From assembly GCA_001873165.1 (NCBI GenBank), contig MNYO01000129.1:1-5157 (forward strand): DNA of 5,157 nucleotides, in the 5' to 3' direction. Source of the stretch: Candidatus Gracilibacteria bacterium CG2_30_37_12. GTDB taxonomy: Bacteria > Patescibacteriota > Gracilibacteria > BD1-5 > UBA2023. Position 1 is the first letter of the stretch. Each line of letters opens with the position of its first letter. Of the stretch, positions 2-5,157 are shown one piece after another. The position numbers and the translations under genes are program-made. The notes below the pieces were generated by a model. The model ran no database searches and had not been told where the DNA came from. It saw nothing but the letters and a program-made list of their open reading frames with translations.

Positions 2-3000
2 TTTTCCATTCTCGTACTTTCCTCCTATTTCTCCATGACCATCGCTATTTCTGCGGGTGTCGTTCCTGACATACTTTTTACCTTCCAAAATCCCAGTTAC
101 GTTACTGATAAAAATTCGCTTCTTTCCGAATTTACTTGCGATATTACCAAGTCAGATTGCAAAGTGAATTTCGATCTATCCACCTCATTTACGGGTGGAT
201 TTTCTGTATCAGATTATACTTGCTCGCTCGACTTTGGGATGGGAAGTCCAACGGGAGAAGAAGCGAAATGTAATCCTATCACGGTTATATTCACTGGAAA
301 TACCGATTATACCGTGCATTTCCGAATCATTCAAAAAATGGATGTGAATATTTTTTCGGAAAAAACTTTAATTATCCACTCTGGATATGCTCCAATTATT
401 ATCGATACTTCCTCTGAAGTCTTGACCAATACAGGTAGTCTTTCGAACTCATGAGTACTGACCAATACAGGAGTTCTTTCGGATTCTGGAACACTGATAA
501 ATTCCTGAATTCTCGATAGTACAGGAACTCTTACAGACTCTTGAATACTTGCGAATTCTGGGATTCTCAATCAAACAGGATTTCTGGTTTCCACGGGAAA
601 TATCTCTCTTCTGACCAGTACGAGCGCTCTGCTTTCTGGAATTGTTTTCGAGCCAATTACTCTGACAGGAAATGTGTACTATGGAACGGGAGAACTGGTT
701 TCGAGTGGGATTATTTTTGATGGATCATTCATATTTTCATGACTTACATCAAATATAGATGATTTCTATCACATAGGTTTTATCTCATCTTCGGGAATTT
801 CGGAAACTCTGTCGGATACAGGAACTTTTCATACACTCTCATCGCCAAAAATAGTTCCCGATATTGTTTTTGTTTTTCAGAATCCGAGTTATGTGACTTA
901 TAAAGATCCAGTACTTGCTGAGTTTACTTGTGACATCACACAATCCGATTGCAAGATAAATTTCGATTTTTCCTCGTCTTTTACGGGTGGATTTTCTGCG
1001 TCCGATTATGTTTGCTCGCTCGATTTTGGAATAGGAAATTTGACGGGAGAAGAATCAAAATGCAATCCTTCCACCGTGGTATTTACAGGGAGTGCTGATT
1101 ATATAGTTCACGCCAAGATTATTCAAAAAGCCGATTCAAATATATTTGCGGAAAGGATATTTACTATTCACTCAGGACATATTCTCCCAGATACTTCTTC
1201 GGGCACGGTGAGTAGTTCGGGAATGCTTTCAAACTCAGGAGTTCTTGATAATTCTGGAACTACTTCAAACTCAGGAATCATTACTCAAACAGGATGAATA
1301 TTTTTTGGTTCAATCTTAGAAATCACTGACCCAGAAATCGTTATCCAGTCGGGAATTAACTCCTCACTCCATTGCACAAAATCAGATTGTATTGTGAATC
1401 TGGAATATGTTCCCAAAGATTCCAAAGAAGCGTGTCTCTGGGATTTTTCTGGTGGAATATATAGTTCTGGAACCGAGCAAAGTTGTAATCCAGGATATGT
1501 TCATTATCCGATTGGCAATTTTACCATTACCTTGCAAGTATATGAGAAAGGAAATACTCTCAATTACCGTGAAAAAATTCTTGTTTTCTCAAATAATATT
1601 TCTGTGATTTCTAATGGTGGATCGAGCATATCTATTAGTTATTCCTCACTTTCTGCATTTATCGCTGAGCCAAATATTGTCGTGCAATCGGGATTGGATG
1701 TGAGTAATCATTGTACAAAAATAGATTGTTCGCTGAATCTAGAATACAAGGTTCTCGGACCAAAAGAAGCATGTCATTGGGATTTCCCTGGTGGTTCTTT
1801 TACTGCCGGGACGGAAAGTAAATGCAATCCTGGATATGTCCACTATCCCATCGGAGATTTTTTGGTTACTCTTCGGGTTTTTGAACAGGAAAATATCTCC
1901 AATTATCGTGAGAAAATTCTTCATTTTTCCAATGGAAATGCGTCAGAGATACAAGAAGCGAAAGTGAATCCTGGAAATCATCCGCCCATTGCTCTCATAA
2001 AGCTCCAATGAACGATCGAGAAAACAAAAATTCAGCAGGGAAATAGTGTAAAATGTGTGGAAGTGGATGAATGTAGTATCAATTTGAGCGGAGAAGAAAG
2101 TTATGATCCGGATCACGATATAGCATCCTATTATTGGGATTTTTGAAATGGGGAAACGAACACAAAAGAGAATCCAGCATCGGTGAAATATGGAATAGGA
2201 GAATATGCGATTGTTCTGCGAGTAACCGATAAAAAAGGATTTTCAAGTGAACAATTTTTTAGTGTATCAGTTTCAGGGAAAGCTATCAAAGAGAAAGAAA
2301 AAATTCCTCTTAAATCTATGGATGAAAAAGTCTTTTTTCTGAAAATTATGAGTACAAATCCAAATCCTCTTGGGAGTGATAATTTTTCAGAATGGGTAGA
2401 AATAAGTAATCCTCTATGAGCGGATATTTCCTTTGCTGGTTGCAGTTTCGATGATGATGTAGAGAAGGGGAGTAATCCATATATTTTCGGAGATTCTGCT
2501 CTGATACGAGCTAATTCTTCCAAGCGTTTTTATAAACTCCAAACACTTTTGAACCTCAATAATACGGGTGATTCTATCAATCTCTTGTGCTGAGGAAAGT
2601 TGATCAGTAGTCTTTCTTGGGATTATTCTGTCCCAGAAGGATTTATCGTTTCACAAGAATATGGATTATTGCAACAAAAAGAGGAGAATATTCTCGATGA
2701 TCTTTTAGAACTCGCAGCGGAGGATGAAAATATATCTTCCGAAAAACTTAGTACTATGCTCTTTGAAAATCTCTTTATATTCGATGATATGTGAGTAAAA
2801 AAGAGTATTTCCAAACCTCAGAAAATATCTGAAATTGCCGGGATAAAATCCATTGAAGATATCCATATTTCGCTTCAATGAGTCATTTCTAAGAATCGTG
2901 TACTCACAGGAAATACACTTGTTTGTCATACGAAAAGTACCTGTAGCGTGAATCTGACCGCAGGAAATTCCCAAAAAGATACGATTTATCTCTGGGATTT

Positions 3001-3352
3001 CTGAGATGGTAAAAGTTTGTACGGAGTAAATCCTCCGGCCCATACTTTTTTTATAGGAAAACACAGCGTCATTTTGAAGATATATGACATCAAAACAGGA
3101 AATCTCCGCGAAGAGATATTTTCTATAATCGTAAAGAAATTAGTGACCGTGAAAAAGGTAAAAGTTCCAAAAGTAGTACCTCCAAAAATAGAAAAACCAC
3201 TCGTGATAAAATGACAAAATTTCTCCACTCCTGTAGTTTTGGACAAGAAAGAAATTTCTCCACTCCAAGCCTCTGCTTCTGCAGGAATTATCCTGTCCCT
3301 TATATTTTCTGGAGCGTATGTGATTATTCGGAGGAAAAAGGTGAATCTATAA
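2..3352 (+). CDS. Large PKD/LTD-domain surface protein, 5' partial, UGA read as glycine
   Basis: One open frame of 1116 residues from the left edge to TAA (3350-3352), crossed by 13 TGA codons and no TAA/TAG. I read TGA as Gly. Residue numbers count from the codon at 2. Residues 1-18 look like the hydrophobic core of a signal peptide ending near AISA, so the true start lies upstream. Then: four-Cys PKD-like domains at 21-128 and 285-392; glycine hexapeptide linkers after each; four-Cys PKD-like domains at 443-532 and 555-646; canonical PKD at 661-759 (WDFGNG 712-717); LTD-like domain at about 776-883 (SEWVEISN near 796-803); an acidic probably helical segment at 884-930; PKD at about 957-1050 (WDFGDG 998-1003); a Lys/Pro-rich stalk; a membrane helix at about 1089-1109; and RRKK at 1110-1113. 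PKD and LTD domains are beta-sandwich folds common in extracellular proteins, so an adhesive or structural surface role is inferred. There is no LPXTG motif. A standard-code annotation would break this gene into fragments. Confidence 0.9.
62..385 (+). repeat. Duplicated four-Cys PKD-like domain, copy A1
   Basis: This encodes residues 21-128 of the surface protein. An ungapped alignment by eye to copy A2 (854-1177) gives about 77 of 108 identical residues. Cysteines are at residues 46, 53, 74 and 90. The third precedes SLDFG, which sits where a PKD domain has its WDFG motif, and the fourth is in KCNP. All four are kept in copy A2, so two disulfides outside the cell are likely (inference). Confidence 0.8.
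434..598 (+). repeat. 18-nt tandem repeat encoding a glycine hexapeptide array
   Basis: Ten glycine codons occur exactly every 18 nt: 434, 452, 470, 488, 506, 524, 542, 560, 578 and 596. The peptide pattern is roughly G-x-[LI]-x-x-[ST], for example GVLTNT and GILDST. Three of the ten (452, 506, 542) are TGA and the rest are GGT, GGA or GGG. A looser Ser/Gly-rich stretch continues to about 720. This probably forms an extended or beta-type linker between surface domains. It is internal evidence that TGA is glycine. Confidence 0.85.
854..1177 (+). repeat. Duplicated four-Cys PKD-like domain, copy A2
   Basis: This encodes residues 285-392, offset 792 nt from copy A1. It shares long exact matches such as FQNPSYVT, SFTGGFS and CSLDFG. 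Cysteines at 310, 317, 338 and 354 keep the A1 spacing exactly. Like A1, it is followed by a glycine hexapeptide array, so the duplicated unit appears to be domain plus linker. Confidence 0.8.
1202..1294 (+). repeat. Second 18-nt glycine hexapeptide array
   Basis: Glycine codons at 1202, 1220, 1238, 1256, 1274 and 1292 keep an exact 18-nt spacing, with units such as GMLSNS and GVLDNS. It follows PKD-like copy A2 as the first array follows copy A1. The last repeat glycine (GGA at 1292) is followed at once by an in-frame TGA at 1295-1297. Confidence 0.8.
1328..1597 (+). repeat. Second-type four-Cys PKD-like domain, copy B1
   Basis: This encodes residues 443-532. It shares with copy B2 the landmarks HCTK, a DC pair, NLEY, EAC-x-WDF, CNPGYVHYPIG and NYREKIL. 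Cysteines are at 458, 463, 478 and 495. Here the PKD tryptophan is present (WDFSGG), but the glycine after WDF is displaced by one residue compared with the canonical motif. Confidence 0.75.
1664..1939 (+). repeat. Second-type four-Cys PKD-like domain, copy B2
   Basis: This encodes residues 555-646, with its cysteines (571, 576, 591, 608) offset 113 residues from those of copy B1. The WDFPGG motif, CNPGYVHYPIG and NYREKIL are retained. No glycine hexapeptide array separates B1 from B2; the connector is a short Ser/Ile-rich stretch, unlike the A-type repeats. Confidence 0.75.
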
Positions 3353-3432: not shown

Positions 3433-4410
3433 ATGAAATTTCTTTCTTTTCTGGTTTTTCTCTCACTTCTCCTCATGGGGTATACTGTTTTTATATTTCC
3501 AAATACTATGGTATCGAAGCAGGATTTTATCGTGAATCGAGGTGATACGATTGCAAGTCTTCCCAAGAAACTTGACGTGCCAGTAAATACTACTTTTTTT
3601 AAGATATATACTCGATTTTTTGTGAAGAATTTCACTCTTCAGGCAGGAACTTATTCTATGGAAAAAGATGCGACTATTGCATCACTTTTCTCTCAAGTAC
3701 TCAAGAATCCTACGTCCAAGGACATTACCATTACCTTTTTGCCAGGTTGGAATATGTGGGATATGGATGCGTATTTGACAAAAGTAGGGATTATAAAAGC
3801 AGGAGATTTTACGAAAAACGCAGAAAATATTACTCCCGAAATCAGGAAAAGTTTTCCATTTCTGGGAAATATGACAACCCTCGAAGGATTTCTCGTTCCA
3901 GATACCTACCGTATCAGTCCAGAAGCTGGAGCGAATGAGATTATAAAAATACTTTTGAAAGCATTTGATGTGAGAATATATAAAGAGTTTAATTTTACCT
4001 CAAATGAGAAATTGTACGAAACACTCATATTTGCTTCCATCCTAGAAAAAGAGGAGAGAAATAGTACGAATAAACCGATTGTAGCGGGGATTCTCGACAA
4101 ACGGTATCAAGAGAAAATACCTATCGGAGCTGATGCAACTGTTTGCTATGGGTATCGTTTGATGATGATAGATTGTACACCGACGTTTATAGGGGAACAT
4201 ATTTATGAGAAAAATCCGTACAATACGAGAAATACTCTCAATCTTCCACCGACTCCGATTGCCAATCCGAGTATTAAAACGATACTGGCGACAATCAATG
4301 CCCAATCAAGTAATTATTATTACTATCTCCATGATAATTCTGGAAATATCCACTATGGGAAAACGCTCGAAGAACACAATGGAAACCGAGTTTTGTATCT
4401 TGGAAAATAG
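3433..4410 (+). CDS. mltG: Endolytic murein transglycosylase MltG (YceG-like family)
   Basis: The 325-residue length is close to the E. coli protein (340). MltG is a membrane-anchored lytic transglycosylase that cuts nascent peptidoglycan glycan strands near the growing wall. An N-terminal membrane helix (about 3-22) is followed by a LysM-like subdomain with VNRGDTIASLPKKL (34-47) and LQAGTYSM (69-76). The catalytic YceG domain follows: EGFLVPDTYR (151-160); ASILEKE (201-207), which holds the glutamate region matching catalytic E218 of E. coli; VAGILDKR (217-224); ADATVCYG (233-240); YNTRNT (263-268); LPPTPIANP (271-279); YYYYLHD (295-301); and EEHN (313-316). The ATG at 3433 is the first after an in-frame TAG at 3415-3417, and it places the membrane helix correctly. 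No Shine-Dalgarno sequence is visible; the leader is T-rich. The gene ends in TAG and contains no TGA among about 17 Gly codons. Departures from consensus include NLPPTPI for the usual GLPPGPI and GADATV for the usual DPTV. Confidence 0.95.
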   Translation: MKFLSFLVFLSLLLMGYTVFIFPNTMVSKQDFIVNRGDTIASLPKKLDVPVNTTFFKIYTRFFVKNFTLQAGTYSMEKDATIASLFSQVLKNPTSKDITITFLPGWNMWDMDAYLTKVGIIKAGDFTKNAENITPEIRKSFPFLGNMTTLEGFLVPDTYRISPEAGANEIIKILLKAFDVRIYKEFNFTSNEKLYETLIFASILEKEERNSTNKPIVAGILDKRYQEKIPIGADATVCYGYRLMMIDCTPTFIGEHIYEKNPYNTRNTLNLPPTPIANPSIKTILATINAQSSNYYYYLHDNSGNIHYGKTLEEHNGNRVLYLGK

Positions 4411-4412
4411 AC

Positions 4413-4441
4413 AAAAAAAGACCGCTCAGATATGGCGGCCT
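4413..4441 (-). terminator. Rho-independent terminator of the minus-strand small-gene cluster
   Basis: Read on the minus strand, GGCCGC (4440-4435) pairs with GCGGTC (4425-4420; five Watson-Crick pairs and one G-U) around a nine-base loop, followed by seven T (4419-4413). An A-T pair at the base extends the stem. It lies 20 nt past the TAA of the 53-residue gene. The plus strand has no U-tract after this hairpin, so it is directional. It abuts the mltG stop codon (4408-4410). Confidence 0.8.
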
Positions 4442-4460
4442 CCTATATTCGCAAGATACC

Positions 4461-4622
4461 TTAATCAGGCATTTTGCGTTTTTCCCCAGGGAATTTTGGC
4501 AGATGATCAAACACCCAGCTTGTGATAATGGATTCTTGTCTATCCCGTCCTCTTCTCTCCGTATCAATTTTCTTGAAATCCTCATGCGGACTTCTAGAAC
4601 CCTTCCTTTCCTCTTCTTTCAT
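4461..4622 (-). CDS. Small charged protein of 53 residues, unknown function
   Basis: The ATG at 4622-4620 is preceded by AAAGGAGA (4635-4628) at ideal spacing, and the frame ends in TAA (4463-4461) just before a terminator. This complete start-to-terminator arrangement is the case for a real gene despite its size. The product is very hydrophilic in its first 30 residues (opening MKEEERKGSR, then TERRGRDRQE at 21-30), followed by a short more hydrophobic segment (SIITSWVFDHL, 31-41) and a basic tail ending KRKMPD. There is no signal peptide or membrane helix. I do not recognise the family. It is the last gene of the minus-strand cluster, 46 nt downstream of its neighbour's stop. It contains no in-frame TGA. 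Confidence 0.68.
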   Translation of the reverse strand: MKEEERKGSRSPHEDFKKIDTERRGRDRQESIITSWVFDHLPKFPGEKRKMPD

Positions 4623-4627
4623 GAATG

Positions 4628-4635
4628 TCTCCTTT
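4628..4635 (-). promoter_or_regulatory. Ribosome binding site of the 53-residue gene
   Basis: AAAGGAGA on the minus strand; its AGGAG core ends six bases before the ATG at 4622. It fixes the start of a gene that length alone would not support. Confidence 0.75.
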
Positions 4636-4668
4636 ATATGTGTTTTTGAAAATTTTTATTTTTGATGC

Positions 4669-4938
4669 TTAATGACGATAAGGTATCCAATGCTGAACTG
4701 GATGATGTGTTCTCACATCTATAGTCCAACAGAATTGTGAAGTATGGAATCCTTGCTTCTTTTTCGATTCCTCCTCCTGATTCAGAGGTTTTGGAATTTC
4801 CCATCCTTCCACTTGCTGAGATTTGCACATTTTACTACCTCCTTTCGTAGGTGTTTCCGACCTAAATTTACATCGGGAGACTGGGCATTGTATGAAAATT
4901 TCTCTAAAGTCAATTCTTTCTACCTCAATTCCACCCAT
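4669..4938 (-). CDS. Small Cys/His-containing protein, 89 residues (53 if the internal start is used)
   Basis: The ATG at 4938-4936 follows AGGTGAG (4950-4944), which overlaps the TAG of the upstream gene, an arrangement typical of translational coupling. The frame ends in TAA (4671-4669). The product is soluble, with cysteines at 18, 23, 38 and 70 and a His-rich end (65, 78, 79, 83, 89; THHP, then WIPYRH at the C-terminus). Metal binding is conceivable but not shown, and I do not recognise the family. A much stronger Shine-Dalgarno (AAAGGAGGT, 4845-4837) stands six bases before an in-frame ATG at 4830, which would give a 53-residue protein starting MCKSQQ. I favour the long form because of the coupling, but either or both may be made. 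The coding sequence has no TGA. It is the middle gene of the minus-strand cluster. Confidence 0.55.
   Translation of the reverse strand: MGGIEVERIDFREIFIQCPVSRCKFRSETPTKGGSKMCKSQQVEGWEIPKPLNQEEESKKKQGFHTSQFCWTIDVRTHHPVQHWIPYRH
4837..4845 (-). promoter_or_regulatory. Strong internal ribosome binding site inside the 89-residue ORF
   Basis: AAAGGAGGT on the minus strand is a near-perfect complement to the usual 16S 3' end. It is followed after six bases by ATG (4830-4828) in the same frame. It encodes Lys-Gly-Gly if the long form is translated. It either marks the true start of a 53-residue gene or provides a second, shorter product. Confidence 0.5.
4887..4913 (-). promoter_or_regulatory. Possible internal promoter for the short form of the small ORF
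   Basis: On the minus strand TTGACT (4913-4908) and TACAAT (4892-4887) are each five of six matches to -35 and -10 consensus, but the spacer is only 15 nt. A transcript starting near 4880 would lead into the strong internal Shine-Dalgarno at 4845-4837. This is suggestive only. Confidence 0.25.
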
Positions 4939-4943
4939 TTTTT

Positions 4944-4950
4944 CTCACCT
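4944..4950 (-). promoter_or_regulatory. Ribosome binding site overlapping the upstream stop codon
   Basis: AGGTGAG on the minus strand, with its AGGTG core seven bases from the ATG at 4938. Its first two bases are the last two of the upstream gene's TAG (4951-4949), suggesting that termination and re-initiation are coupled. Confidence 0.5.
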
Positions 4951-5157
4951 AACCAACCGTAAAAAGCCTTTGTTGTACTGAGTCTAACGGATTTCTATTG
5001 ATGTGTTTTCTTGGATCCTTTTTAGGTCGTTTGTAGAGTTGTTCCAGACAGTGAGAGATGAAGGTAATAATGGAGTTACGATTCATCGTAAGTCCGAGTC
5101 TCCGTGTAAATTTTTCAAACTTCTTGGTAAACTCTTTTCCGACTCGAAAGAGTCGTG
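4949..5157 (-). CDS. Small basic protein, 5' partial; possible ribbon-helix-helix DNA-binding protein
   Basis: An open minus-strand frame runs from the right edge to TAG (4951-4949), giving 68 complete residues and no start codon with a ribosome site in the window, so the gene begins outside it. The visible part opens RLFRVGKEFTKKFEKFTRRL, continues with GLTMNRNSIITFISHCLEQL, then a Lys/Arg-rich tail. A short strand-like segment (LFRV), a charged helix, a turn at GLTMNRN, and a second amphipathic helix resemble the Arc/MetJ-type ribbon-helix-helix layout, in which an RNS-like turn precedes helix 2. The assignment is by pattern only; no family is confirmed. The other two minus-strand frames are closed by TAA or TAG in this stretch, even with TGA read as Gly. 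It is the first visible gene of the cluster and its stop overlaps the next gene's ribosome site. Confidence 0.5.
   Translation of the reverse strand, partial: RLFRVGKEFTKKFEKFTRRLGLTMNRNSIITFISHCLEQLYKRPKKDPRKHINRNPLDSVQQRLFTVG

Follow-up and report, generated by a model that had tools for sequence, protein, structure and literature searches.

In-frame UGA codons in a surface-protein gene of a Candidatus Gracilibacteria contig are very likely decoded as glycine

Under NCBI code 25, which is assigned to Gracilibacteria (BD1-5) and Absconditabacteria (SR1), UGA is read as glycine. Three papers, drawn on here in extract, bear on this code. In a BD1-5/SN-2 population, 97 peptides were unique to the glycine reading of UGA, compared with three unique to tryptophan and none to termination; at the highest stringency, 40 glycine peptides were found versus single ones for Trp, Ala, Lys and Asp (PMC4032931). 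The gene prfB, which encodes release factor 2 (RF2), was reported as undetected in every BD1-5 genome available to the authors (PMC6851277), and UGA was inferred to be glycine in 13 of 15 Gracilibacteria species, the other two of which keep RF2, one of them being placed in a different order (PMC8629427). In the present work we analyzed a stretch of 5,157 nucleotides (hereafter the window) that is, exactly, contig MNYO01000129.1 of Candidatus Gracilibacteria bacterium CG2_30_37_12 (assembly GCA_001873165.1; contig C39 in our numbering) and carries a predicted surface-protein gene with 13 in-frame TGA codons. An initial annotation of the window had proposed that these codons are read as glycine and had taken code 25 to be established for Gracilibacteria and Absconditabacteria; the peptides cited above are earlier support for that code. 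As judged from sequence comparison, UGA very likely specifies glycine in this Gracilibacteria-clade genome, and the window frame is one gene. This result agrees with what the extracts of all three papers report; UGA as glycine is already known for the clade, and the finding is sound, not new.

Compared with code 25, the genome is alike in having UGA at glycine positions, in that RF2 was not found and in its placement within the clade. A tRNA with a UCA anticodon that bears glycine identity elements was seen in relatives and is lacking from this assembly, probably owing to a gap; the code itself is no different here. The Absconditabacteria are described in an extract of PMC8629427 as having added CGA and CGG as tryptophan codons, whereas here these codons face arginine. 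The Mycoplasma-type code 4 is similar in using UGA as a sense codon and in that RF2 was not found, and differs in the residue, which here is glycine rather than tryptophan.

The gene and its TGA codons are listed below, with the codons found at the aligned positions of same-genus homologs (GGN denoting the four standard glycine codons).

2..3352, forward strand: predicted protein-coding gene, 5' end lost at the contig edge; 1116 codons with UGA as glycine, stop TAA at 3350-3352, open under code 25
422..601, forward strand: ten hexads L-x-x-[ST]-G-x; position 5 is glycine or TGA in 10 of 10, TGA in three (452, 506, 542)
452..454, forward strand: in-frame TGA, repeat glycine position; aligned homologs alanine in 3 of 3
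506..508, forward strand: in-frame TGA, repeat glycine position; five homologs, 3 GGN and 2 TGA
542..544, forward strand: in-frame TGA, repeat glycine position; from the codon count, without an aligned homolog
740..742, forward strand: in-frame TGA; four homologs, 3 GGN and 1 TGA
1295..1297, forward strand: in-frame TGA; from the codon count, without an aligned homolog
2009..2011, forward strand: in-frame TGA, LQ-x motif ahead of the first PKD domain; four homologs, 1 GGN and 3 TGA
2144..2146, forward strand: in-frame TGA, glycine of WDF-G-NG; four homologs, 2 GGN and 2 TGA
2417..2419, forward strand: in-frame TGA; four homologs, 2 GGN, 1 Ala and 1 His
2591..2593, forward strand: in-frame TGA; GGN in 4 of 4 homologs
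2792..2794, forward strand: in-frame TGA; serine in the single aligned homolog
2879..2881, forward strand: in-frame TGA, LQ-x-VI (residue 960); TGA in 6 of 6 genus genomes compared
3002..3004, forward strand: in-frame TGA, glycine of WDF-G-DG in the C-terminal PKD-like part; five homologs, 3 GGN and 2 TGA
3212..3214, forward strand: in-frame TGA; five homologs, 4 TGA and 1 Thr

The codon count of the frame bore out the initial annotation on all 13 TGA positions, on the lack of any TAA or TAG before 3350 (the TAA at 3350-3352 being the only one of the frame) and on the proportion of TGA among the glycine codons, which number 93 and comprise 80 GGN and 13 TGA. When the bases of the frame were shuffled 1000 times, the mean number of in-frame TAA and TAG codons was 54.9 and the minimum 35, versus one observed; the near-absence of these codons is not a matter of chance. 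The remaining two forward frames contain 31 and 30 TGA codons, and 32 and 31 TAA/TAG codons, respectively. The TGA codons at 452, 506 and 542 had been assigned to the glycine of an exact six-residue repeat; the glycine position and the period of six were upheld, whereas the letters of the repeat proved to be degenerate. At 2144 and 3002, TGA occupies residue four of the motif WDF-x-[ND]-G, and its assignment to the glycine of that motif was substantiated by the genus homologs, which have GGN or TGA wherever the codon is aligned. When TGA was replaced by X, the first motif, WDF-X-NG, also aligned with WDFGDG of ColH PKD domains of solved structure, X falling on the glycine.

The gene is conserved in five same-genus genomes, and the homologs provided 44 cells opposite the window TGAs, of which 19 were TGA, 18 Gly, four Ala and one each His, Ser and Thr, with no Trp. 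In the reverse direction, the 60 window cells opposite homolog TGAs comprised 30 Gly (GGN), 19 TGA, five Ser, two Thr, two Glu, one Phe and one Lys. Between the window gene and the same homologs, TGG faced Trp in 24 of 24 cases. A wider comparison was made with the proteins of 11 stretches of Escherichia coli K-12 against 60 of the 134 contigs of the genome. It gave 108 alignments, and 32 of these were dropped for overlap with a better alignment of the same DNA, leaving 76. TGA was opposite glycine in 25 of 67 cells, with no Trp and no Cys; where the flanks were conserved, glycine accounted for 19 of 32, followed by Ala (five), Gln (two) and others represented singly. An unfiltered tally, in which antisense shadow frames were included (31 Gly, 12 Arg, 9 Leu and others of 102), was superseded by the filtered set. 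The claim that tryptophan does not fit the TGA sites was thereby sustained in both comparisons (0/67 and 0/44). With conserved flanks, CGA faced arginine in 132 of 200 cells and tryptophan in about 1%, and CGG faced arginine in 11 of 15 without any tryptophan. Since both codons face mainly arginine, the CGA/CGG change of the Absconditabacteria is not seen here, and the code of the genome is plain table 25.

Release factors were searched in 40 genomes of the order, including that of the window (G000), whose assembly is 90.5% complete and consists of 134 contigs. The genome has a single class I release-factor match, which is prfA, encoding release factor 1 (RF1): it scored 457 bits with TIGR00019 (prfA, cut-off 423) and 269 bits with TIGR00020 (prfB, cut-off 370). 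Across the order, no genome of the 40 had prfB over cut-off; the model gave exactly one match, below cut-off, in 37, and the three genomes without a match are 78-80% complete. By comparison, prfB was over cut-off in 173 of 192 genomes of the phylum and in all 14 same-class genomes from other orders. The absence of prfB, which the initial annotation had proposed to look for, was thus confirmed at the level of these models. The selenocysteine factor SelB was also over cut-off in 0 of the 40 genomes.

The RF1 gene of the genome itself contains three TGA codons, at residues 118, 178 and 192. All 76 RF1 loci without a Gracilibacteria label have glycine at these three residues, and in four Gracilibacteria loci the 12 corresponding cells were seven Gly and five TGA. 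Among the 37 RF1 genes of the order, 31 have 1 to 17 in-frame TGAs and six have none; the number ranges from 0 to 17 across the order and from 0 to 3 in the genus of the window. RF1 also served for placement: of the 80 RF1 loci retained from the genome collection, the four best were named Candidatus Gracilibacteria, and a single-gene tree of this genome and 25 of the 84 available loci (26 rows) placed the genome together with these four in a clade of nine rows (100/99). The assignment of the contig to Gracilibacteria, put forward earlier as an inference, hence has the backing of the RF1 tree.

A tRNA with anticodon UCA was found in 33 of the 40 genomes searched, including five of six same-genus relatives. 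Of these copies 30 were read, filtered on a GCG start, the loop and a CCA end (no copy failed), and all 30 have the loop CTTCAAC (anticodon TCA), G1-C72, C2-G71, G3-C70 and U73, the features by which an extract of PMC8629427 classes tRNA-UCA as a glycine acceptor. The tRNA has an ordinary 7-bp acceptor stem and a 7-base anticodon loop, and a long variable arm is lacking. Genome G005, of the same genus, has 36 tRNA places, one of them with anticodon UCA; ARAGORN labels it SeC, and it lies next to tRNA-Arg(GCG). Over 79 bases, the UCA tRNA has one and the same sequence in four of the five relatives from the genus that have it, and its D-arm differs from that of the genus tRNA-Gly(UCC). The search for a glycine tRNA with this anticodon, likewise proposed in the initial annotation, accordingly succeeded in the relatives but not in this assembly.

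We interpret UGA as glycine because of the in-frame TGAs, the exchange of TGA with GGN among homologs, RF1 as the only release-factor match, the occurrence of TGA at invariant glycines of RF1 itself and the presence of the UCA tRNA in 33 of the 40 genomes; homolog alignment, RF1, the prfB result and the relatives' tRNA all uphold the proposal overall. UGA would be decoded by the predicted tRNA-Gly(UCA), presumably charged with glycine, while RF2, the factor terminating at UGA, is below cut-off in all 40 genomes of the order; the tRNA probably also exists in this organism, with its neighbourhood missing from the assembly, and RF1 would handle all termination at UAA and UAG. Several observations weigh against this interpretation. 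In the genus comparison, 7 of 44 cells opposite window TGAs are neither Gly nor TGA. In the E. coli comparison, GGA faced glycine more often than TGA did (537/873 versus 25/67, and 347/471 versus 19/32 with conserved flanks), and TGA was opposite arginine in 7 of 67 cells; the lower rate and the arginine cells are likely, though not proven, to be caused by distant or wrong-frame alignments. The UCA tRNA was not found in this assembly (90.5% complete) and is missing from 6 of 39 relatives, among them G008 (93% complete), the remaining five being 70-84% complete. This assembly is also without 13 further anticodons present in G005, including every G005 tRNA for Ala, Asn, Asp, Ile, Lys, Pro and Val, a set that is hardly dispensable to a cell. 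The two genes that flank the UCA tRNA in G001, G003, G005 and G006, one of which also occurs in G004, were not found in the whole genome, in searches run without a positive control of the same kind. Because 13 other anticodons and both flanking genes are missing as well, we infer that the absence of the tRNA here is an assembly gap.

Tryptophan, inserted by a tRNA-Trp(UCA) as under code 4, deserves attention in that an extract of PMC8629427 gives it as the commonest bacterial reassignment of UGA and in that a UCA tRNA combined with RF2 loss would look similar. It is nonetheless extremely unlikely, given that no E. coli or genus cell opposite TGA contained Trp, that TGG faced Trp throughout, that the UCA tRNA has U73 where tRNA-Trp has G73 and that the three RF1 TGAs lie at invariant glycines. 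We lend hardly any credence to the standard code with programmed readthrough of TGAs that are stops or selenocysteine sites. The label tRNA-SeC given by ARAGORN would fit selenocysteine, but the 7-bp acceptor stem and the lack of a long variable arm do not, neither SelB nor prfB was over cut-off in the order, and 13 TGAs in one gene as well as TGAs (17 at most) in the RF1 of 31 of 37 genomes speak against it.

A decayed or badly sequenced gene, in which the TGAs would be real stops, might be suspected from 13 standard stop codons in one frame and from the lack of the nuclease domain that four homologs possess. Decay would also have introduced TAA and TAG, of which there is none before 3350; the homologs in five genus genomes are open with 7 to 24 TGAs each, some at the same sites, and RF1 carries TGA in most genomes of the order, which makes decay very unlikely. 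It is likewise highly improbable that the meaning of UGA is mixed, that is, mostly glycine with alanine or another residue at certain sites, or that UGA serves a purposeful slow decoding. Alanine does occur in four of the 44 homolog cells, three of them at residue 151, and Trp, Ala, Asp and Lys were each recorded in a single peptide beside the 40 for glycine (PMC4032931, in extract); however, Ala/Gly exchange is ordinary between homologs, GGN faces other residues too, and the single peptides may be noise.

The present result constitutes an independent confirmation that code 25 applies to the contig and its order. As a consequence, gene calling needs UGA as glycine, the standard code breaking the window protein at 13 TGAs. 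That RF2 is over cut-off in 0 of 40 genomes of the order, yet in all 14 genomes sampled from other orders of the class, brackets where the code change arose, and the RF1 genes, with 0 to 17 TGAs within the order, form a series in which the spread of a reassigned stop codon can be studied.

The share of TGA among glycine codons is higher in the window gene (13/93) than in stretches supported by E. coli alignments of at least 100 bits (37/1234; Fisher p 1.8e-5). It is not exceptional, in that the same share is reached by 17 of the 72 frames having 40 or more glycine codons, the window gene included, in a set that has spurious frames. The E. coli-supported share was used because the set of 404 open frames, in which TGA makes up 1272 of 10,392 glycine codons, includes spurious ones. 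Across 82 all-glycine columns of six homologs, TGA coincided in 35 pairs compared with 10.6 +/- 2.9 in shuffles that ignore the relatedness of the homologs, and none of 5000 shuffles reached 35; the identity of GGN codons was kept too, with 218 pairs versus 188.7 +/- 10.0 (22/5000). That UGA is maintained at particular sites of the surface gene in this genus, rather than being just a spare glycine codon, appears unlikely; if true, a slow, placed UGA codon would suit an exported multidomain protein whose translation is paced. The simpler reading of the coinciding sites is slow T-to-G change by descent. A Gln codon before TGA had no strong effect (45/284 in the 404-frame set with its spurious frames), and the fixed LQ-TGA sites are left unexplained by neighbour-codon context.

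Downstream of the surface gene, and within the protein that it encodes, the following features were located.

2072..2266, forward strand: PKD domain, residues 691-755; PF18911, 70.8 bits for the whole protein, cut-off 27
2354..2620, forward strand: lamin-tail-like stretch, residues 785-873; PF00932, 28.8 bits, below the cut-off of 34.3
3433..4410, forward strand: mltG (endolytic transglycosylase); PF02618, 179.5 bits; TIGR00247, 122 bits, cut-off 103.4; stop TAG

The mltG gene has 17 glycine codons and no in-frame TGA; it follows the surface gene in the window and was not found near the homologs in nine loci of about 5 to 9 kb. In the remainder of the window (4411-5157), four frames (4274-5155) gave no Pfam family over cut-off and one sub-cut-off match (E 0.044), and at gathering scores Rfam had no match anywhere in the window.

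The PF18911 match of the window protein, over the Pfam cut-off, comprises two stretches; the second domain type is termed lamin-tail-like only, because its PF00932 score is below cut-off. Reading by eye of the N-terminus of the G006 homolog and the C-terminus of the window protein suggests that the protein is likely exported and membrane-anchored. The same-genus PKD/lamin-tail/SNase proteins of G002, G004, G005 and G006 share its parts in the same order, with 44-64% identity over aligned columns, and differ in having an SNase domain (PF00565) after the lamin-tail-like stretch, which the window protein lacks. The SNase gap is clean and in frame, at about 2654-2665 (residues 885-888), and SNase matches occur elsewhere in the genome at C122:636-965 and, partially, on C40. 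The G001 homolog (L240 2220-4787) is a single frame of 856 codons ending in TAG, without the part matching window residues 661-948, namely the first PKD domain and the lamin-tail-like stretch. A search of the paper library found no paper joining Gracilibacteria, a nuclease and a PKD domain. Among 7988 candidates scored in a protein search, at least 18 relatives were recovered, the best being a hypothetical protein of Candidatus Gracilibacteria.

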